Below are positions 22,091-36,432 of a DNA stretch of 38,129 nt, piece by piece. How positions within the stretch are numbered: position 1 is the first letter of the stretch; each line of letters opens with the position of its first letter. Origin of the DNA: Bacteroidota bacterium. Lineage in GTDB: Bacteria; Bacteroidota; Bacteroidia; Bacteroidales; VadinHA17. The notes beneath the pieces are model-generated. The model was not told where the DNA came from, searched no databases, and saw only the letters and a program-made list of their open reading frames with translations. The position numbers and the translations under genes were made by a program. The stretch lies in assembly GCA_029564935.1 (NCBI GenBank), contig JAKQPD010000034.1:1-38129 (forward strand). Direction: 5' to 3'.

Positions 22091-23947
22091 ATGGATAAAA
22101 ACACAATTTACAACTTTCTGAAAGGAATTGAACTCTTCAGAAATCTGAATTATAATGAATTGCATGATGTTGCTGAAAAGGTGACATTGAAACACTGCAC
22201 TGATGGTGAAATGCTTTTTCATGAAAACGGTCCAAGGGAAAACATCTTTATAATTTATGATGGTGAAGTTGAGCTTTACAAACACAATTCATATGGTAAT
22301 GAAGTCAGACTGGCTTTATTTGCCGGTGGGGATTTTCTTGGTGAAGGGATCTGGGATCAAAGCTCTCCTCATTCAACATCCGCAAGAGTAGCCGGGAATG
22401 CTATACTTTTTGTTATCAACAAGGAATTTTTCAGTTATAATCCTGAAACCACTCTTAAGATCCTTTCGAATATAACAAGGGTCATTTCACGAAGAATGAG
22501 GAATGTAAATAACCGGATGCTGAATCTTTCAACTCAGTATGAATCCGGGATGACAAGATCCGAGCACGATCTTCTCGGAGACAGGGAAGTGCCGTATGAG
22601 GCATATTATGGTATTCAAACCCTGAGAGCTGCAGAGAATTTTAATATTTCCGGAGTAACACTTAATTTCTTCCCCTCACTGATTGAAGCTTTTGCGATGG
22701 TAAAGGAAGCAGCTGCCGAAGCAAATTCTGAACTGGGGTTGCTTGATAAGAATATTAAAGATGCTATCGTAATTGCCTGCCGTGAGCTGCAACACGGTAA
22801 ATATCAGAACCAGTTTGTTGTTGATATGATACAGGGCGGGGCCGGGACTTCAACCAATATGAATGCCAATGAGGTAATCGCTAACCGCGCCCTCGAAATT
22901 CTTGGCTATGAAAAAGGTGACTACTCCAACTGTCATCCCAATAATCATGTAAACCTGTCCCAGTCAACAAATGATGCATATCCTACTGCTGTCAAGATCG
23001 CTCTTTTCAATTCTAACAGGAGAATTGTTTCCGTGCTTAAGGATCTGACAGACTCTTTCAGGAAAAAAGGAATGGAATTTTCTGATATAATAAAGATGGG
23101 AAGGACCCAGCTTCAGGATGCAGTTCCGATGACACTCGGACAGGAATTTGAAGCTTATGCAGTTACCCTGGAGGAAGAGTTAGAAAGATTAAATCAGAAT
23201 GTGAAATTATTCCTTGAGGTAAATATGGGTGCAACCGCAATAGGAACAGGCATAAATTCCCATCCGGATTATTCGGAAAAGGTGATAACTCACTTGAGGA
23301 GAATAACAGGCCTGGATTTATGTCTGGCCTCAAATCTTGTGGAAGCAACACAGGATACCGGAAGTTTTGTAATGTACTCATCAGCAGTAAAACGGCTGGC
23401 TCTGAAACTTTCAAAGATCTGTAATGATCTCAGACTTTTGTCATCGGGGCCCAGAACGGGCATCTTTGAAATAAATCTGCCACCCATGCAACCGGGATCA
23501 TCAATTATGCCGGGAAAAGTCAATCCGGTAATCCCGGAAGTTGTAAACCAGATCGCATTTAAGGTTATCGGAAATGACCTTACCGTAACGATAGCCTCTG
23601 AAGCCGGGCAGCTTGAGCTTAATGTTTTTGAACCTGTAATTGTTCAGAGCATATTTGAATCTGTCGAAATGCTTATTAATGGAATGAACACTTTGAAATA
23701 CAGATGCATAGACGGGATCACCGCAAATAAAGAACACTGCAGGCAACTGGTCATTAACAGTATTGGTCTCTTAACAGCCCTTGTTCCATGGATCGGTTAT
23801 GATCTGGCAGGAGCTCTGGCAAAAGAAGCTTTCGAAAAAAACGAAAGCATCTATACCCTTGTTCTTGGGAAAGGTATCCTTACCAAAGAAAAGCTTGATC
23901 AGATATTACTTCCTGAAAATATGATCCGTCCTGTAAAGATCGGTTAA
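22091..23947 (+). CDS. aspA: Aspartate ammonia-lyase with N-terminal cyclic-nucleotide-binding domain
   Basis: This 618-residue fusion joins a cNMP-binding-like domain (about residues 8-130) to a full aspartase (about 158-618). Aspartase reversibly splits aspartate into fumarate and ammonia, feeding fumarate respiration. Lyase marks: GDREVPYEAYYGIQTLRA, NQFVVDMIQGGAGTSTNMN, NLSQSTNDAYPTA, and the flexible loop PGSSIMPGKVNP near residue 468. The first domain shows the beta-barrel pattern FHENGPRENIFIIYDGEVEL, and GDFLGEGIWDQSSPH in place of the phosphate-binding cassette. There the Arg that contacts the cyclic phosphate appears to be His or Ser, so classic cAMP binding is doubtful. Such Crp-domain aspartases occur in other Bacteroidota. 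Confidence 0.9.
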   Translation: MDKNTIYNFLKGIELFRNLNYNELHDVAEKVTLKHCTDGEMLFHENGPRENIFIIYDGEVELYKHNSYGNEVRLALFAGGDFLGEGIWDQSSPHSTSARVAGNAILFVINKEFFSYNPETTLKILSNITRVISRRMRNVNNRMLNLSTQYESGMTRSEHDLLGDREVPYEAYYGIQTLRAAENFNISGVTLNFFPSLIEAFAMVKEAAAEANSELGLLDKNIKDAIVIACRELQHGKYQNQFVVDMIQGGAGTSTNMNANEVIANRALEILGYEKGDYSNCHPNNHVNLSQSTNDAYPTAVKIALFNSNRRIVSVLKDLTDSFRKKGMEFSDIIKMGRTQLQDAVPMTLGQEFEAYAVTLEEELERLNQNVKLFLEVNMGATAIGTGINSHPDYSEKVITHLRRITGLDLCLASNLVEATQDTGSFVMYSSAVKRLALKLSKICNDLRLLSSGPRTGIFEINLPPMQPGSSIMPGKVNPVIPEVVNQIAFKVIGNDLTVTIASEAGQLELNVFEPVIVQSIFESVEMLINGMNTLKYRCIDGITANKEHCRQLVINSIGLLTALVPWIGYDLAGALAKEAFEKNESIYTLVLGKGILTKEKLDQILLPENMIRPVKIG

Positions 23948-25270: not shown

Positions 25271-27508
25271 ATGGCAACACGCAGGCAATTCATCAGGATC
25301 ACAACAATGGGTGCCGGAGCTGTCATTGCCGGAGCAGCAGGTTATAAACTGCTTGGTAATGAGCGCAATGCCGCTCACAAGGCTGCAGAGGCAGTTCTGA
25401 CAGGGCGCACCCCGACATACTGTGAGATCTGTTTCTGGAAATGCGCCGGGTGGGTTTACAGGGATGAGAATGGAGCAATAAAAAAGATCACCGGGAATAA
25501 TGAAGATCTCAACTGTAATGGTCGTTTCTGCCCCCGCGGAACCGGAGGGGTGGGAATGTATTATGATGAGGACCGCCTGCGTACACCACTCATCAGGACA
25601 GAGGAGCGTGGTAAACAGAGTTTCCGCGAAGCTACATGGGATGAAGCTTTTGATTATATCGCAGAAAAAATCAAGGTCATTTCTGCTGAACATGGCCCTG
25701 AATGTCTTGCTCTTTTCACTCACGGATCGGGAGGAAAATACTTCTCAACCCTTCTGCGGGCACTTGGCTCACCTCATATCGCAGCACCATCATATGCACA
25801 ATGCCGCGGACCCCGTGAAGTGGCATTCCAGGCAACATTCGGCGAAGCGATCGAAAGTCCTGAACGAACCGATATACGCGATACAAAATGCCTTGTCCTG
25901 ATAGGCAGTCATATCGGTGAAAACATGCACAACGGCCAGGTTCAGGAGATGTCCGATGCCATCGACAAGGGAGCCACGATAATTACTGTTGATCCCCGAT
26001 ACTCAACTGCTGCCGGAAAATCAAAATACTGGTTGCCAATCAAACCGGCCACCGATCTTGCATTACTGCTGGCCTGGATAAACGTTATTATCACTGAAGA
26101 ACTGTACGACAAACCATATGTTGAAAAATATACATATGGCTTTGAATATCTCAGGGATCATGTGAAAAATATGACTCCCGAATGGGCCTATGGTATCACA
26201 ACAATTGATCCGACTGTCATACGTGAGACAGCCCGCGAGATGGCTAATGCCGCTCCGGCAGTTATTGTTCACCCGGGTCGCCATGTTACCTGGTACGGTG
26301 ATGACACCCAGCGAATGAGGGCTGTCGCCATCCTTAACGCCATTCTTGGTTCATGGGGACGAAGAGGAGGATTCTACCGTCCGGAGACCTTCAGTATCGC
26401 GGAACCGGAACACCCTCCCTTCCCGACTCCGAAAAGATCATGGAGAACAGAATTCCCTGATCTGTACAAACTGGCTGATACAGTACTTGCCAACGGAGTA
26501 TGCGATGCCACAGTCCCTGATCCCAGCAGGCATTGCCAGTTCCAGGGTTGGATCGTCAACGGGACAAACCTGATAGAAACACTTCCAAACCAGGAAAACA
26601 CCCTGAAAGCCATCCAGTCCCTTCAGCTTCTTGTAGTGATTGATACTATGCCGATGGAAATAACAGGCTGGGCTGATGTTGTCCTTCCTGAATGTACATA
26701 CCTCGAGAGATATGATGAACTGAGAGTGGGACCACACCGCAAACCGCAAATTGCCCTCAGAATGCCTGCAACAGAACCTTTATATAATACAAAACCGGCA
26801 TTCTGGATGGCAAGAGAGCTCGCTAAAAGACTGGGCGTAATAGATTATTTCCCCTTTGAGAAAATTGAGGATCAGCTTGACTGGCAGCTAAAGCAGATCG
26901 GAAGCAGCCTCGAAGAAATGAAAAAGACCGGGGTTAAAACCTTTGAACGCCCTTATGAAGACCTGTATTTTGCTCCCGGCGAAAATGTTGAGTTTTATAC
27001 ACCAAGCGGTAAAATTGAACTTTACTCTCTGTCAATTGAAGAGGCCGGATTTGATCCTATGCCAAAATACACTCCTCATGAAGAACCTCCGGAGGGTTAT
27101 TACAGGCTCAATTACGGTCGTGCCCCAATGCATACTTTCAGCCGGACTGCTAATAATCCCAATCTGACCGATCTTATGGATGAAAACAGCCTGTGGGTTA
27201 ATCCGGGAGTTGCAAAAGAGTGGGGGTTGACAAGCGGACAATATATCTACCTCGAGAACCAGGATGGCAAACGTTCAGAATTCCCGATAAAAGTAAGAGT
27301 AACGGAACGTATCCGCTGGGATTCAGTATATATGGTTCATGGCTTTGGCCACGATCAGAAAAAACTGAAACGGTGTTACGGCAAGGGAGCCAGCGATACC
27401 AATCTTATTACTAAAGTACTTGTGGATCCTATAATGGGAGGTACAGGAATGAGAGGAAATTTCGTTACTTTCATTACTGACCTTAAATCAGGGGAGGCGA
27501 GATCATGA
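25271..27508 (+). CDS. PsrA/PhsA-like molybdopterin oxidoreductase catalytic subunit
   Basis: This 745-residue Mo-bisMGD enzyme of the polysulfide/thiosulfate reductase group (CISM catalytic subunit) opens with a Tat-type signal, TRRQFIRITTMGAGAVIAG. The [4Fe-4S] site uses C51, C54, C58 and C87 (YCEICFWKC then RFCPRG). The likely molybdenum ligand is C178 in SYAQCRGPREV; Cys is usual in Psr/Phs/Nap-like enzymes. A pterin segment (TVDPRYSTAAGKSKYWLPI) and the C-terminal MopB-binding domain (residues 600-740) follow. Its stop overlaps the start of the ferredoxin gene. The YeeE/YedE and rhodanese genes favour thiosulfate, polysulfide or sulfur as substrate. Tetrathionate or arsenate cannot be excluded by eye. 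Confidence 0.85.
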   Translation: MATRRQFIRITTMGAGAVIAGAAGYKLLGNERNAAHKAAEAVLTGRTPTYCEICFWKCAGWVYRDENGAIKKITGNNEDLNCNGRFCPRGTGGVGMYYDEDRLRTPLIRTEERGKQSFREATWDEAFDYIAEKIKVISAEHGPECLALFTHGSGGKYFSTLLRALGSPHIAAPSYAQCRGPREVAFQATFGEAIESPERTDIRDTKCLVLIGSHIGENMHNGQVQEMSDAIDKGATIITVDPRYSTAAGKSKYWLPIKPATDLALLLAWINVIITEELYDKPYVEKYTYGFEYLRDHVKNMTPEWAYGITTIDPTVIRETAREMANAAPAVIVHPGRHVTWYGDDTQRMRAVAILNAILGSWGRRGGFYRPETFSIAEPEHPPFPTPKRSWRTEFPDLYKLADTVLANGVCDATVPDPSRHCQFQGWIVNGTNLIETLPNQENTLKAIQSLQLLVVIDTMPMEITGWADVVLPECTYLERYDELRVGPHRKPQIALRMPATEPLYNTKPAFWMARELAKRLGVIDYFPFEKIEDQLDWQLKQIGSSLEEMKKTGVKTFERPYEDLYFAPGENVEFYTPSGKIELYSLSIEEAGFDPMPKYTPHEEPPEGYYRLNYGRAPMHTFSRTANNPNLTDLMDENSLWVNPGVAKEWGLTSGQYIYLENQDGKRSEFPIKVRVTERIRWDSVYMVHGFGHDQKKLKRCYGKGASDTNLITKVLVDPIMGGTGMRGNFVTFITDLKSGEARS

Positions 27509-28038
27509 GATACGCAATGGCTGTTGATACGAAGAAATGCGTTGGTTGCAGCGATTGTGTTGTTGCCTGCCAGACTGAGAACAATGTACCGATCGGATTC
27601 TGCCGTGACTGGGTTGTGGAGGTGATCGACGGAACTTATCCGCAGCTGGAAGTTGAGCTGAGATCAGAACGGTGCAATCACTGTGAAAATGCACCCTGTG
27701 TAAGATGCTGCCCGACCGGAGCAAGTCATATTGCTGAAGGAGGAATTGTCCTGGTCAAACCCGGCAAATGTATCGGCTGTGGAGCCTGTATCGCCTCCTG
27801 CCCCTATGATGCACGTTTCCCTCATCCGAAAGGATATGTGGATAAATGTACCTTCTGTATTCACCGCGTGAAACAGGGGATGAAACCTTCATGTGTATCG
27901 GTATGCCCGACAAAATGCATGTATTTCGGCGATCTCGATGATCCCAACAGTGATGTAAGCCAGGTGCTGAAAAAACGTAAACATAAAACCCTCATCCCTG
28001 AGGCCGGAACCTTACCCCAGTTGTACTTCCTAATCTGA
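27505..28038 (+). CDS. PsrB/PhsB-like four-cluster ferredoxin subunit
   Basis: This 177-residue electron-transfer subunit contains sixteen or so cysteines arranged for four [4Fe-4S] clusters: CVGCSDCVVACQ, CNHCENAPCVRCCPTG, CIGCGACIASCPYD, and CTFCIHRV with CVSVCPT. It passes electrons between the NrfD membrane subunit and the molybdoenzyme. The start overlaps the psrA-like stop by 4 bases and the stop is 7 bases before the NrfD gene, so the three subunits are translated together. It has no signal of its own; as in other CISM enzymes it would be carried out with the Tat-exported catalytic subunit. Confidence 0.93.
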   Translation: MRYAMAVDTKKCVGCSDCVVACQTENNVPIGFCRDWVVEVIDGTYPQLEVELRSERCNHCENAPCVRCCPTGASHIAEGGIVLVKPGKCIGCGACIASCPYDARFPHPKGYVDKCTFCIHRVKQGMKPSCVSVCPTKCMYFGDLDDPNSDVSQVLKKRKHKTLIPEAGTLPQLYFLI

Positions 28039-28045
28039 GAAACAA

Positions 28046-28987
28046 ATGAAAGAAGAACTTATCATCAGCGGAAGGGAGAATTTGTTGGTCGACCCGCAAC
28101 TGCATATCTGGCACTGGCCCATCCCGCTTTATCTTTTCCTGGGCGGACTGGCAGCCGGGGTACTGTTTTTTGCCGCCCTCTACCATCTGTTGGGAAAAGA
28201 GGAGGAATACCGTACTGCCGTGCGGAAAGCACCTTTTATAGCCCCTTTTGCACTGGTCATAGGCCTGATATGTCTGTTTATCGACCTTAACCATAAAGCA
28301 TATTTCTGGCAGCTTTATACTACTATCAGAATTGAATCCCCAATGTCCTGGGGTGCCTGGACATTGCTCGTTATAACTGTTTCGGCTTTTATCTGGTGTG
28401 CTCTGCACATCAGGGAGTATTTCCCCGCCTGGGACTGGAAATATAAATGGCTCAGGGATCTTGAGAGCTTCTTTAACAGATATAAGAAACAGCTTGCCTG
28501 GGTGATGCTCATATTTGCAATAATTACCGGCGTCTATACCGGCATATTACTCTCTGCTTTCAATGCCAGACCTCTCTGGAACACATCGGTGCTCGGTCCG
28601 CTTTTTCTTGCGTCAGGGCTCTCAGCAGGTGCTGCAGCAATTGTACTGTTATCAAAAGATAAAAAGGAAAGATTGCTGTTCACAAAGATAGATCTGATAA
28701 TACTTGGCACGGAACTTTTCCTGATCGTCCATATGTTCATGGGATTCCTGGCCAGTACACAGGTACAGATCGAAGCGGCACAGCTCTTTCTGGGCGGACC
28801 TTATACAGTGGTTTTCTGGATTTTCGTAGTTATCCTCGGTATAATCATACCGGGTGTTCTCGATCTGATGGAGATGCGGGGTAAACATATTCCTGCAGTA
28901 TTACCCGGTATTCTTGTTCTGACGGGTAGCTTCGTCTTCCGTTTTGTATTTGTTTTTGCCGGCCAGGTCAGTCGCTGGCTTTACTGA
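28046..28987 (+). CDS. NrfD/PsrC-like membrane quinol subunit
   Basis: This 313-residue integral membrane protein has about eight helices of the NrfD/PsrC family, the quinone-linked anchor of CISM enzymes. The N-terminal WHWPIPLYLFLGGLAAGVLF is the family's first-helix signature, followed by LFIDLNHKAYFWQLY and SPMSWGAWTLL, where quinone-site residues cluster in PsrC. The C-terminal part has AQLFLGGPYTVVFW near helix 7. It completes the three-subunit reductase. Two YeeE/YedE genes follow 21 bases downstream. Confidence 0.92.
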   Translation: MKEELIISGRENLLVDPQLHIWHWPIPLYLFLGGLAAGVLFFAALYHLLGKEEEYRTAVRKAPFIAPFALVIGLICLFIDLNHKAYFWQLYTTIRIESPMSWGAWTLLVITVSAFIWCALHIREYFPAWDWKYKWLRDLESFFNRYKKQLAWVMLIFAIITGVYTGILLSAFNARPLWNTSVLGPLFLASGLSAGAAAIVLLSKDKKERLLFTKIDLIILGTELFLIVHMFMGFLASTQVQIEAAQLFLGGPYTVVFWIFVVILGIIIPGVLDLMEMRGKHIPAVLPGILVLTGSFVFRFVFVFAGQVSRWLY

Positions 28988-29008: not shown

Positions 29009-29545
29009 ATGACCATTAACACAAGTAAAGATAAGAGCAGAAAATACCTTAATCCCTACCTTGGCGGGGTACTTCTGGGACTGGTACTGCTTTCTGCCAA
29101 TTTTATCGCCGGAAGAGGATTGGGAGCCAGCGGCGCTATCAAAAGCGTTGTGGCGACTACAATCGGAACTGTAAATAAGGATGCCATCGGTACTATGCCT
29201 TTTATGGCCGAATATGCTGAATCGCACAGTGGTAATCCAATGAAGTCGTGGCTTGTCTTCGAGATGTTTGGAGTTATTGTCGGTGGTTTTCTGTCAGGGG
29301 CAGTAGCGGGCAGACTTAAGCTTAAAGTTGAACATTCGCCTAAGATCAGTTCCCGGAGAAGACTGATTTTCGCTCTGGCCGGAGGGATACTTTTTGGCTT
29401 CGGCTCACAGCTGGGACGAGGTTGTACAAGCGGTTCAGCCCTGAGTGGTATGGCTGTACTTTCTCTGGGAGGATTCATAACCATGATGGCAATCTTCGGA
29501 ACAGCCTATGCACTGGCATATTTTTTCAGAAAGAACTGGATCTAA
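29009..29545 (+). CDS. YeeE/YedE thiosulfate-transporter half, first copy
   Basis: This 178-residue protein has four or five transmembrane helices and the YeeE/YedE motif SQLGRGCTSGSALSGMAVLS, whose cysteine is part of the relay that passes thiosulfate through the TsuA/YeeE channel. TsuA-type proteins are about 330-360 residues with two such repeats. Here the function is carried by two half-length genes in a row, which presumably pair. The N-terminal half reads GGVLLGLVLLSANFIAGRGLGASG. It lies in the Psr-type operon, so the supplied compound is probably a sulfur substrate for the reductase or for thiol synthesis. Confidence 0.88.
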   Translation: MTINTSKDKSRKYLNPYLGGVLLGLVLLSANFIAGRGLGASGAIKSVVATTIGTVNKDAIGTMPFMAEYAESHSGNPMKSWLVFEMFGVIVGGFLSGAVAGRLKLKVEHSPKISSRRRLIFALAGGILFGFGSQLGRGCTSGSALSGMAVLSLGGFITMMAIFGTAYALAYFFRKNWI

Positions 29546-29562: not shown

Positions 29563-30153
29563 ATGGGACCACTGGCACCAAATGAAATAATATCAGAAAA
29601 TACGAATTTTTTACTCGCATTCTTTATAGGTATAGCTTTCGGATGGGTACTTGAGAGCTCCGGATTCTCATCGAGCCGGAAACTGGCAGGTATCTTCTAT
29701 GGCTATGATGCCGTTGTACTGAAAGTCTTTTTTACGGCAGCAATAACAGCCATGCTTGGACTACTGTTCATGAGTGCTTTCGGCTGGATTGACCTGACCC
29801 TTGTATATGTCAATCCGACATACCTCACCTCTGCAATAGTGGGCGGGGTAGTAATGGGTGCGGGGTTTATTATGGGAGGATTCTGCCCGGGAACAAGCTT
29901 CTGCGGTGCAGCTATAGGAAAGATCGATGCAATGGTATTTATCGGAGGACTTTTCATCGGCGTATATGGTTTCGCCTTTACATACGGCTGGTGGGAAAAG
30001 CTTTATCTGGCAAGATACCTGGGAGAACCTAAGATAAGTGACAAACTGGGTCTTTCTGACGGTCTTTTCGGACTCTTTATGATTCTTGTTGCTCTTGGCA
30101 TGTTTGTTGTTGCCGAATGGGCTGAAAAGAAATTCCCAAGGGAAGAATATTAA
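29563..30153 (+). CDS. YeeE/YedE thiosulfate-transporter half, second copy
   Basis: This 196-residue protein is the partner half. It starts at the ATG at 29563, preceded by the unusually good ribosome binding site AGGAGG (a purine-rich AAAGGAGGAAAG). It has four or five helices, the first-helix segment FFIGIAFGWVLESSGFSSSR, and the cysteine motif MGGFCPGTSFCGAAIGKIDAM, with two cysteines against the single one in the upstream copy. Both halves together would match the two-repeat TsuA fold. It is followed 16 bases later by the rhodanese-like gene. Confidence 0.88.
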   Translation: MGPLAPNEIISENTNFLLAFFIGIAFGWVLESSGFSSSRKLAGIFYGYDAVVLKVFFTAAITAMLGLLFMSAFGWIDLTLVYVNPTYLTSAIVGGVVMGAGFIMGGFCPGTSFCGAAIGKIDAMVFIGGLFIGVYGFAFTYGWWEKLYLARYLGEPKISDKLGLSDGLFGLFMILVALGMFVVAEWAEKKFPREEY

Positions 30154-30169
30154 TCAAAAATCAATCATA

Positions 30170-30793
30170 ATGAAACAATTAAAACTACTCGCACTTATTA
30201 TTATTCCTCTCGGGATAATAATTGCTGCCATGCCGGCGGATAAGGTAAATCACTCCCGGCTTACGCCCGGTGAACTTCTTCAGGAAGCAGGGTCTGGTGT
30301 ACAGTTCATTTCTCCCGATATTGTTGCTGACATGCTTGTAAGGAAAGATCCTTCTCTCAGACTTATCGATGTCAGAACACCTGAGGAATTCGAAACATAT
30401 AGCTTACCAGGGTCAATAAATGTACCTCTTAGCAATCTCCTTTCTGATGAATTTTCTGATATACTGAATCAGGATGCCTATACTAATGTTTTCTATTCAA
30501 ACGGATCAGTATATGCCAATCAGGCATGGATGATCACCAGGCAGCTCGGATATGAAAATAATTTCGTTCTTGAAGGAGGACTCAACTACTGGTTCGGGAA
30601 CATACTCTCGCCTGCATCACCTTCACAAACCAGTCCTGATGAGGAGTTTGCCAGATATGATTTCCGAAAAAGTGCAGCAGCTGCACTTGGCGGAGGAGGA
30701 GTCGTTTCAACTGATGCAGCATCACCTTCACCAAAAGCAGTAAAACCACCTGTTACTGCAAAGTCAAAAAAGAAGCCCTCTGGTGGTTGCTAA
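30170..30793 (+). CDS. Rhodanese-like protein with serine active site and C-terminal GGC tail
   Basis: This 207-residue exported protein has a signal or anchor (residues 1-22) and a rhodanese domain (about 48-145): RLIDVRTPEEFETYSLPGSI and NFVLEGGLNYW. The position of the catalytic cysteine is Ser110 in VFYSNGSVYANQAW, so it cannot form the usual Cys-persulfide. The protein has one cysteine, residue 207, the last residue, in PSGGC after a flexible Ala/Pro/Lys tail (170-203). This placement resembles sulfur-carrier proteins such as SoxY, whose swinging arm ends GGCGG. I start at the ATG at 30170; a frame from 30086 overlaps the upstream gene. It ends the Psr/YeeE operon. Confidence 0.85.
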   Translation: MKQLKLLALIIIPLGIIIAAMPADKVNHSRLTPGELLQEAGSGVQFISPDIVADMLVRKDPSLRLIDVRTPEEFETYSLPGSINVPLSNLLSDEFSDILNQDAYTNVFYSNGSVYANQAWMITRQLGYENNFVLEGGLNYWFGNILSPASPSQTSPDEEFARYDFRKSAAAALGGGGVVSTDAASPSPKAVKPPVTAKSKKKPSGGC

Positions 30794-34056: not shown

Positions 34057-36270
34057 TCATTTTTTCACATAGATTTTGCCGGCTCCCCTTCCATGACAGT
34101 TACCTATATGTGAGGCATGAATTATTCCGGATTTTTTCAGATCAGCCATTATTCCATCCTTCTCCTTCGTCGGAACAGTAAACAACAATCCCCCGGATGT
34201 CTGGGCATCACAGAGTATTGTCCTTGTTATTGAAGATATGGTCTTATCCCAGATGACATGACGGGAGAAGTGATCCATGTTATTTTTTGTTCCCCCGGGA
34301 ACAATCCCTGCAGCCGCAAGATTTGCAGTTTCTCCGAATACCGGCACCTTACCGGCAAACAGTTCAACATCAACGCCACTTGCGACAGTTACCTCCCTCA
34401 GGTGCCCTATAAGCCCAAATCCGGTTATATCGGTACAAGCATGAACTGTATATTTTTCAAGAACCTCTGCCGCCCTTCTGTTCAGCTCCGACATGACTGA
34501 TATAAGTTCCATTTTTGCATTGTTGCTGAGGAGACCTCTTTTCAAAGCTGTAGTCAATATTCCGGTGCCTACAGGTTTTGTCAGAATTATTGCATCATTT
34601 TCCTGTGCCCCTGAATTTGCCCAGATCTTATCAGGATGAACGGTTCCGCATACTACCATCCCGTACTTTGGCTCGGGATCATCAACAGTATGACCTCCCA
34701 GAATACATATACCGGCCTCTGATGCTTTATCGGCAGCTCCTTTCAGGATATCCTTCAAAACTTCCATTGGGAGCCGGCTTGACGGAAATCCGACTATATT
34801 CAATGCAAAAAGGGGCTTCGCTCCCATGGCATAAATATCACTGAGTGCATTAGCCGCAGCTATTGAACCAAAATCATACGGGTCATCAACAACAGGGGTA
34901 AAAAAATCGACAGTCTGGACAATAGCTGTTTTATCATTGATCCTGTATACTGCTGCATCATCCGAATTCTTTGTATCAATTAACACATCCGGATCCATGC
35001 CGGATGGTATCTCCTTCAATATTTTTTCAAGTTCCTGTGGACGTAACTTACAAGCACATCCGAGGCCCTGTGTATAGCTTGTCAGCCTTATTTTCCCCCT
35101 TTCAGTATTCGTTTCAGGGACCTTACCGGATCCTGATAGCCTTAACCTGTTGACAATGTCCGTTATTACAGATGAAGCATGCCTAATCTCATCTTCGGTA
35201 GTATACCTTCCCACAGAAAACCTGATAGTACCCATTGCATAATCAGGATCCAGTCCGATAGCTGTCAGTACCGGAGAAATATCTACTGAATCCGTGTGGC
35301 ATGCTGCACCAGCTGAAGCAGCAATACCCTTTGATTCCATTTCGTTCAGAAGTATGTTGGCTTCTATCCTGTGAAAGCTGACACTAAGGGTATTAGGAAG
35401 ACACATCTGAGGATGGCCATTAAACTTTATCTCCTCTATTTTCTGCATCAGGGAATCCCGGAGCAAATCTCTCATTTTTTGCATGTGGCTGATGTTTTTG
35501 TCCAGATCCTGCCGTGCTATCTCACATGCTTTGCCCAGTCCGGTAATTTCAGGCACATTTTCAGTCCCGGCCCGCTTATTCTGTTCATGATCAGCTCCAT
35601 GAATAAGTTTCTCGAGAATAATCCCATCCCTTATATAAAGAGCTCCCACTCCTTTCGGTGCATAAAGCTTATGACCGGCTATCGTTAAAAGATCAACCTC
35701 CATTTTCCTGACATCTACCGGATATTTTCCTGCAGACTGAGCTGCATCGGTGTGAAAAGCAATATTATGCCTGTGTGCAATTTCAGCTATTTCGGAAACG
35801 GGCTGAATAGTTCCGATCTCATTATTTGCATGCATAACTGAAATCAGTATCGTCCCTGGAGTGACTGCCGCTTCCACATCCCCGGGATTTATTCTCCCGG
35901 ACCCATCAACCGGAAGGCAGCTTACCAGGAAACCTTTACTCTCCAGATACCTGCATACTTCCAGAACTGACGGATGCTCGATGGCAGATGTTATGATGTG
36001 CTTCCCCCTGTGCTCATTTGCATAAACAAATCCCTTAATTGCAAGATTATTTGATTCGGTCCCTCCGCTTGTAAAAATGATCTCATCAGGCCGGCAGTTT
36101 ATAAGATCTGCAACCTGTTTTCGTGCATTTTCAACGGCAACCTTTGCATCAGTACCAAAGCTGTGAGAACTTGATGGATTACCAAAATACTTTTCAAGGT
36201 ATGGCTGCATCGCCTGAACCACATCTCTGTCAACCGGTGTGGTAGCATTATAATCAAGATATATTTTCAT
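34057..36270 (-). CDS. selD: Cysteine desulfurase-selenophosphate synthetase fusion
   Basis: This 737-residue bifunctional protein has an N-terminal NifS/IscS-type PLP enzyme (1-380), with LYLDYNAT-like start, TSGGTESNN, the PLP lysine K201 in AGHKLYAPKG and the catalytic C324 in SAGAACHTD. The C-terminal SelD (about 393-737) has catalytic C405 and K408 in GLGCACKLRP, the metal Asp in NSDDAAVY, VDFFTPVVDDPYDFG, NALSDIYAMG and ATP-binding GGHTVDDPEPKYG. The first half can release selenium from selenocysteine and the second makes selenophosphate for selenoprotein or selenouridine synthesis. Cys is used at C405 where some homologues have Sec. Start is the ATG at 36270, not the TTG before it. No selA or selB is in view. 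Confidence 0.93.
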   Translation of the reverse strand: MKIYLDYNATTPVDRDVVQAMQPYLEKYFGNPSSSHSFGTDAKVAVENARKQVADLINCRPDEIIFTSGGTESNNLAIKGFVYANEHRGKHIITSAIEHPSVLEVCRYLESKGFLVSCLPVDGSGRINPGDVEAAVTPGTILISVMHANNEIGTIQPVSEIAEIAHRHNIAFHTDAAQSAGKYPVDVRKMEVDLLTIAGHKLYAPKGVGALYIRDGIILEKLIHGADHEQNKRAGTENVPEITGLGKACEIARQDLDKNISHMQKMRDLLRDSLMQKIEEIKFNGHPQMCLPNTLSVSFHRIEANILLNEMESKGIAASAGAACHTDSVDISPVLTAIGLDPDYAMGTIRFSVGRYTTEDEIRHASSVITDIVNRLRLSGSGKVPETNTERGKIRLTSYTQGLGCACKLRPQELEKILKEIPSGMDPDVLIDTKNSDDAAVYRINDKTAIVQTVDFFTPVVDDPYDFGSIAAANALSDIYAMGAKPLFALNIVGFPSSRLPMEVLKDILKGAADKASEAGICILGGHTVDDPEPKYGMVVCGTVHPDKIWANSGAQENDAIILTKPVGTGILTTALKRGLLSNNAKMELISVMSELNRRAAEVLEKYTVHACTDITGFGLIGHLREVTVASGVDVELFAGKVPVFGETANLAAAGIVPGGTKNNMDHFSRHVIWDKTISSITRTILCDAQTSGGLLFTVPTKEKDGIMADLKKSGIIHASHIGNCHGRGAGKIYVKK

Positions 36271-36432
36271 CAAATTATTACCCCATAATACTTTTATCCT
36301 GCTAAGTTAAAAAAAACAGGGTGTAGTTCAATCAGTTGTACAGATTGATTATTTTTACATGCAGAGCAATATTATAAACCGGAAGGATATTATTGTTAAT
36401 TTGTAAATTGAAACAGTTATAACATCACAATC

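Follow-up and report, generated by a model that had tools for sequence, protein, structure and literature searches.

What can a rhodanese do once the catalytic cysteine of its loop has gone and the only cysteine it has is its very last residue? The question is raised by a gene in a 38,129-nucleotide stretch of DNA from a Bacteroidota bacterium (contig JAKQPD010000034.1 of assembly GCA_029564935.1, the whole stretch being called the window here), which stands in one operon with a YeeE/YedE-type sulfur importer and a reductase of the Psr type. The original prediction, made from the letters of the DNA, saw in its product a carrier taking sulfur between these two by means of a cysteine at the end of a swinging tail.

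The protein and its predicted architecture

The gene (30170..30793, plus strand) runs from ATG to TAA and encodes 207 amino acids ending in ...KSKKKPSGGC, with a single cysteine, Cys207, in the whole of the sequence. Rhodanese (PF00581) is the sole Pfam match, at 54.1 bits against a cut-off of 22.2, which makes the protein a member of the rhodanese superfamily, and Pfam, AlphaFold2 and Foldseek agree on a domain covering residues 49-141 (30314..30592, plus strand). No NCBIfam model above its cut-off names the protein, and because of this such genes may pass as plain Bacteroidota rhodaneses. Four PDB sequences match it, each across the rhodanese domain alone. The top Foldseek match is the rhodanese-like protein 6mxv, and many of the 50 matches listed are rhodaneses or sulfurtransferases by name, with other names among them too, such as 2hhg and the mitoribosomal 9hny. 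In the alignment with 6mxv, ungapped at this point, a Cys faces Ser110 (codon 30497..30499, plus strand), and so the loop cysteine has been replaced in the window protein, which therefore lacks the residue expected of a catalytic single-domain rhodanese of the GlpE/PspE type. Family members that retain the loop Cys (L053 and L065_3512) have it in the Ser110 column. With 6mxv, Pfam and AlphaFold2 in agreement, the claim of a fold that is intact apart from the exchanged catalytic residue holds.

The AlphaFold2 model, made from 33 sequences, has a helix at residues 4-19, a confidently predicted rhodanese domain, a further helix at 157-175 and then a tail, residues 176-207 (30695..30790, plus strand), that is basic before its end; its pLDDT block means of 43-57 are of low confidence and mark it as a disordered region. 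The last three residues form the GGC terminus (30782..30790, plus strand), and translation and model together bear out the placing of the only cysteine on a flexible tail. By hydropathy residues 4-22 (30179..30235, plus strand) are an N-terminal transmembrane segment, so that the protein is probably membrane-anchored. The original prediction spoke of the only Cys of the mature protein: the sole-cysteine part stands and the cleaved N-terminus probably does not, as the segment is kept as the sixth transmembrane segment of the fusions described below and is probably an uncleaved anchor.

Conservation of the tail and the fate of the loop cysteine

GTDB genomes of the phylum Bacteroidota were scanned with peptide patterns drawn from residues ahead of the tail, and 300 of the 366 stretches retrieved encode a relative; records of Labilibaculum and Carboxylicivirga, which have cultured members, are among those with the gene. 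Among the best 80 of these 300, where the count of tails is not circular since the patterns exclude the tail, the tail Cys is kept in 79 of 79 complete homologues, the ends being GGC in 78 and GGCS in one, with one further gene cut by the end of its contig. The loop residue is Ser in 79 of the same 80, and the script did not parse the remaining one. Some of the named loci duplicate contigs of the other genome set (DIWB01000049.1, for instance, is G032:C44, 5831 bases). The window protein has matches in 70 of 98 genomes, its own included, and in 261 of 395 genomes of the phylum, both counts taking in ordinary rhodaneses. An alignment of 33 members, reaching down to 25% identity and chosen by hand for diversity after their tails were known, has D67, R69, W120, G137, G206 and C207 invariant. 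A family HMM built from it, with tail columns that favour tailed sequences, gives the tail in 127 of 128 distinct frames at E below 1e-30 (the exception being a frameshifted gene), a figure that is partly circular because of those columns, as the 79 of 79 is not. On both counts the tail has the conservation on which the original prediction depended, and the 79 of 79 is far more than chance would give. A family member at L228:548-952 is frameshifted before its tail, which is readable in another frame, and is either a pseudogene or the result of a sequencing error.

Within the 127 tail-selected frames the final Gly and Cys codons differ synonymously (for Cys, TGC in 79 and TGT in 48), and the mean net charge across the 15 residues preceding the Cys is +4.5; with values from -2 to +9, not every member has the polybasic stretch. 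Of the 116 tailed members shorter than 250 amino acids, 105 have no Cys after residue 30 other than the terminal one, and in a second fetch a Cys lies at most five residues from the end in 32 of 32 family members. Variant ends that keep the Cys while the glycines vary are GGLCS (L291, L292) and RMGC (L295, L296, L298, L217). A DNA pattern for the GGC end has 35 matches in the window's own genome, where its reverse, used as a control, has 25. The scan was one for GGC ends as such, and 30 of the 35 were viewed as loci; the 26 viewed matches with a stop, out of 29 such matches, include no second long GGC-ended frame, the next being of 72 amino acids. Among 2934 frames of the scanned loci, a total that includes spurious frames and genes duplicated across overlapping loci, 181 of the 184 GC-type ends are on rhodaneses. 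There is little doubt that the tail Cys has a function, and it is likely to carry sulfur.

How tail and loop go together is seen in 206 distinct rhodanese frames, sampled by homology searches and for that reason biased, so that no p-value is attached: a tail without a loop Cys is found in 137, both together in 10, a loop Cys without a tail in 50 and neither of the two in 9. At least three of these nine (L191, L200 and L218) are alignment slips in which the loop Cys is present. A strict rule that absence of the loop Cys means presence of the tail is not upheld in this table. The invariable pairing of loop-Cys loss with a tail that the original prediction proposed to look for also fails from the other side, as 10 of the 147 tailed frames, and L297 besides, retain the loop Cys. 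Homologues with a loop Cys and no tail, which had been named as evidence against the idea, are the 50 just mentioned, and with the family HMM none of them scores at E below 1e-20. For comparison, 40 control regions were taken, two of which (L217 and L228) proved to hold family members; in the 38 control rhodaneses outside the family the loop Cys is found in 33 by HMM and in 4 more by eye and is absent from 1, and a Gly-Cys end occurs in two, both of them GGCGG. The tail is absent from a single-domain operon paralogue, L078_1952, and from two-domain rhodaneses adjoining the modules (L070_162, L070_1189, L077_274 and L078_2538). The tail is thus no mere by-product of loop loss, and such loss is common in proteins that have a tail.

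A different kind of neighbour is a set of two-domain rhodaneses of 364-380 amino acids (L060:3804-4946, L061:1404-2543, L069:521-1618 and L079:5006-6100) with lipoprotein-type starts, active-looking loops and tails resembling those of their operon neighbours; these are possible loaders of the arm. The window's own genome, in an assembly about 95% complete, has three rhodaneses in all, and the two besides the window protein are MnmH (L232) and a 138-amino-acid rhodanese with the loop Cys and without a tail, so that no tailed loader was found there. MnmH uses selenophosphate, and this MnmH would use that of a NifS-type cysteine desulfurase-SelD fusion encoded within the window (34057-36273, minus strand).

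Several operons have more than one tailed rhodanese, and their tails resemble each other. For this comparison 14 loci, each with two or three such genes, were picked by hand (L068 was excluded, its first gene being cut). Over the eight positions that precede the final GC, agreement is 68% for the 22 pairs from one locus and 27% for the 474 pairs from different loci, both percentages being raised by the first Gly of GGC, which is one of the eight; none of 5000 label shuffles gave a within-locus agreement as high as that observed. Recent duplication does not explain the likeness, as the bodies of same-operon tailed paralogues are only 17-35% identical. It suggests a docking partner that the tails would share, and gene conversion of the tails could also give rise to it.

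The importer as constant neighbour

Immediately before the rhodanese gene are those for the two halves of a Sulf_transp (PF04143) importer, YeeE1/YedE1 (29009..29545, plus strand), with Cys139 in GRGCTSG, and YeeE2/YedE2 (29563..30153, plus strand), with Cys108 in GGFCPGT; the stop of the latter is 16 bases from the rhodanese start. Among the best 80 of the 300 loci, YeeE2 is directly upstream of the rhodanese in all 75 with at least 700 bases of upstream sequence and YeeE1 is upstream in all 71 with at least 1500. Cys139 of YeeE1 is invariant (74 of 74, window included), as is Cys108 of YeeE2 (75 of 75, window included), and a further YeeE2 cysteine, Cys114, is in 72 of 75, again with the window included. 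With two PF04143 halves and a conserved Cys in each, this is a split importer of the YedE1E2 kind. The constant module is YeeE1-YeeE2-rhodanese and, more widely, the constant element is YeeE together with a tailed rhodanese.

The link is closer still in 34 loci of other genomes of the phylum, where rhodanese and tail are the C-terminal part of YeeE2. Eight of these came from a first fetch (L042, L043, L045, L046, L051, L052, L069 and L079) and 26 from the second, whose 35 regions gave a rhodanese match in 33, 32 being of the family and one (L288) another protein, with none in two fillers. That the protein is tied to the YeeE pair, as had been predicted, is thus borne out both by adjacency and by fusion. 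Hydropathy of the first eight fusions gives five hydrophobic segments followed by a short linker, net positive or neutral in charge, and by a sixth segment that leads into the rhodanese; L042 has an additional weaker hydrophobic stretch within its rhodanese. If the linker is cytoplasmic, the rhodanese domain is therefore outside, and on this architecture the rhodanese domain of the window protein is predicted to be periplasmic. A fusion model of moderate quality (mean pLDDT 71.3, pTM 0.53) has a helix at 201-218 ahead of the rhodanese domain, and no tail contacts are visible in it. Several tailed paralogues have, as judged by eye from their sequences, lipoprotein-type signal starts, and because of these their tails should be extracytoplasmic.

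Upstream of the importer in the window are genes for a PsrA/PhsA-type molybdopterin reductase catalytic subunit (25271..27508, plus strand), a PsrB-type 4Fe-4S subunit (27505..28038, plus strand) and a PsrC/NrfD membrane subunit (28046..28987, plus strand), the last two identified by Pfam. The closest solved structure to the PsrA protein is 2vpw_A (649.9 bits), which we take to be the polysulfide reductase of Thermus and which carries the PDB label thiosulfate reductase; against the PhsA model the protein scores 459.4 bits, below the cut-off of 694. All of PsrA, PsrB, PsrC, YeeE1 and YeeE2 are upstream in each of the 57 loci, among the best 80 of 300, with at least 5400 bases there. In the four fused clusters with wide flanks (L302-L305, from four genomes) the order is octaheme cytochrome, cytochrome b, YeeE1 and YeeE2-rhodanese. 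All four octaheme proteins are above the tetrathionate reductase family cut-off, and the cytochromes b match the model for thiosulfate reductase cytochrome b with scores under its cut-off, which suggests that these clusters may tie the use of tetrathionate or thiosulfate to sulfur import. Of the predicted carrier between importer and Psr, then, the importer end stands and Psr as a fixed partner does not, its place being taken by the octaheme cytochrome in four of four; the steady partner of the tailed rhodanese is the importer. Further upstream in the window a gene (22091-23947, plus strand) combines, as a fusion, a cyclic-nucleotide-binding domain with a lyase of the aspartase/fumarase type.

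A proposed relay arm and its alternatives

Conservation, architecture, fusion and synteny are plain features of these loci, and delivery to YeeE is the specific model with the best support. Our main reading, to which we give a probability of about 0.57, is that the protein is the sulfur-relay arm of the two-part YeeE/YedE importer, with the terminal Cys handing over sulfane sulfur; the loading, the cargo, the direction and the order of the cysteines are what we infer. The N-terminal helix would anchor the protein in the inner membrane beside YeeE2, with the rhodanese domain facing the periplasm and, having lost its catalytic Cys, acting as a docking body, which fits the scaffold role of the original prediction. 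Cys207, on its long disordered basic tail, would pick up periplasmic sulfane sulfur (as persulfide, polysulfide or thiosulfonate) and present it to the importer, to Cys108 of YeeE2 and then Cys139 of YeeE1, toward the cytoplasm. The adjoining reductase, PsrABC here and octaheme cytochrome with cytochrome b elsewhere, may handle related sulfur compounds, and in some relatives the arm may be loaded by those rhodaneses of lipoprotein type that share its tail and still have the loop Cys.

The sulfur could instead be destined for the reductase. Sud of Wolinella succinogenes is a periplasmic single-domain rhodanese, a polysulfide-sulfur transferase that feeds Psr and works through its loop Cys, and a tail Cys bringing polysulfide sulfur to the Psr catalytic subunit, with the YeeE pair merely belonging to the same pathway, would resemble it in joining a rhodanese fold to a Psr-type reductase. 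The complete PsrABC at all 57 loci whose upstream sequence is long enough and the kinship of PsrA with 2vpw are what such a feeder would lead one to expect. It is nevertheless unlikely: the module persists without Psr in the four octaheme clusters, and YeeE2 is the only fusion partner identified, in searches not specifically directed at reductase fusions. Unlike Sud, the window protein has Ser in its loop, its only Cys at the C-terminus and probably a membrane anchor, and is tied to YeeE. A terminal Cys that formed a disulfide with another subunit or copy, so holding a complex together, would also explain why one Cys alone lies on the periplasmic side and why an operon can have several tailed paralogues with similar tails. 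A disordered linker of some 30 residues followed by GG would seem to belong to a mobile arm rather than to a clamp, and anchoring is already supplied by the transmembrane segment or the fusion, which leaves this structural role improbable.

A short conserved end behind a variable linker, common to the paralogues of one operon, is also what a C-terminal signal for sorting or lipid attachment, recognized by a processing enzyme, would look like. GC-type ends are nearly confined to rhodaneses (181 of 184 in the scanned loci), the 26 viewed matches with a stop in the window's own genome include no other long GGC frame, and many carriers are already anchored by YeeE2 fusion or a lipoprotein-type start; for the first two of these reasons the signal is not favoured, and we hold it to be very improbable. 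Equally slight are the chances that the arm carries selenium and not sulfur, supplying selenide to SelD. It is the NifS-SelD fusion gene of the window that brings selenium to mind, and there is a published link between selenium and YedE-like proteins (PMC5322559). Against this, NifS-SelD is within 9 kb in only 2 of the best 80 of 300 loci, many with little downstream sequence, the genome's MnmH is a user for the selenophosphate, and the adjoining reductases are of sulfur type.

The relay-arm reading has several partial precedents, given here from the accessible portions of the papers cited. SoxY, which ends in GGCGG (PMC6067878), is a periplasmic carrier whose swinging arm bears the Cys in a C-terminal end rich in glycine, as is proposed for the tail here. 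The paper on SoxT deems a passage of sulfur from the SoxY Cys along three cysteines that line a YeeE-like channel ‘conceivable’ and describes the second sulfur atom of thiosulfate as transferred by unknown means (PMC11582611). Unlike SoxY, the window protein has a rhodanese fold, with Pfam reporting Rhodanese alone, and its own membrane anchor; it stops at GGC with no trailing GG, the family ends being GGC or EGC, and reductases adjoin. It is SoxY-like in its proposed working and by domain no member of the SoxY family. A second kind of tailed rhodanese (L233:8131-13372 and L234:8845-13803) has the loop Cys intact, a lipoprotein-type start and a GGCGG end, and so gives substance to the SoxY-like look noted in the original prediction. 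Both genomes belong to the order of the window's organism and have a full-length YeeE-type protein beside two GGCGG rhodaneses; the scanned region downstream in L233 has FlpD, FAD and Fe-S proteins as well as a DsrE_2 match slightly short of the cut-off, and this is perhaps an Hdr-type sulfur pathway in which rhodaneses replace SoxYZ.

Closest to the importer itself is YedE1E2 of Cupriavidus pinatubonensis, likewise a two-gene importer, with one conserved Cys per half, one mid-membrane and the other at the cytoplasmic side, essential for the import of zero-valent sulfur, and with rhodanese genes co-occurring in STRING (PMC10812762). The association of rhodaneses with YedE1E2 is accordingly not new; a tailed or fused rhodanese is not mentioned in the available part of that paper. 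What is added here, or fused, is a third conserved Cys, carried by an arm predicted to be periplasmic, and the tail Cys may be the outer station of the importer's cysteine path. YeeE-YeeD (TsuA-TsuB), for the uptake of thiosulfate, likewise gives a YeeE-type importer its own sulfur protein with a Cys; YeeD is TusA-like and thought to be on the cytoplasmic side, whereas the partner here is predicted to be periplasmic and has a rhodanese fold (PMC11073785, PMC13047784). In Dethiobacter alkaliphilus rhodanese-domain genes cluster with SirA/Otr-like octaheme cytochromes, as in the octaheme clusters, with YeeE occurring 0 times and the tail not described in the text available (PMC10376724). LbpA of the sHdr system, a proposed substrate-presenting protein with a near-C-terminal Cys often beside glycines, is lipoylated and of another fold (PMC6067878). 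In the accessible parts of the open-licence PMC literature no paper was found that brings together YeeE and a rhodanese with a Cys on a C-terminal arm, and this is perhaps an undescribed kind of sulfur hand-over arm.

The broader picture, which we put at somewhat short of even odds, is of an as yet undescribed carrier class in Bacteroidota made up mostly of dead rhodaneses whose thiol has moved from the loop to the tip of a swinging arm, several arms per operon sharing the YeeE1/YeeE2 site in a three-cysteine inner-membrane relay that would take the place of SoxYZ. With the carrier fused to an importer half and an invariant thiol on the arm, the relay becomes testable within one polypeptide. 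More generally, these proteins suggest that a rhodanese with a dead loop may be more than a relic, as its thiol can relocate to a tail.
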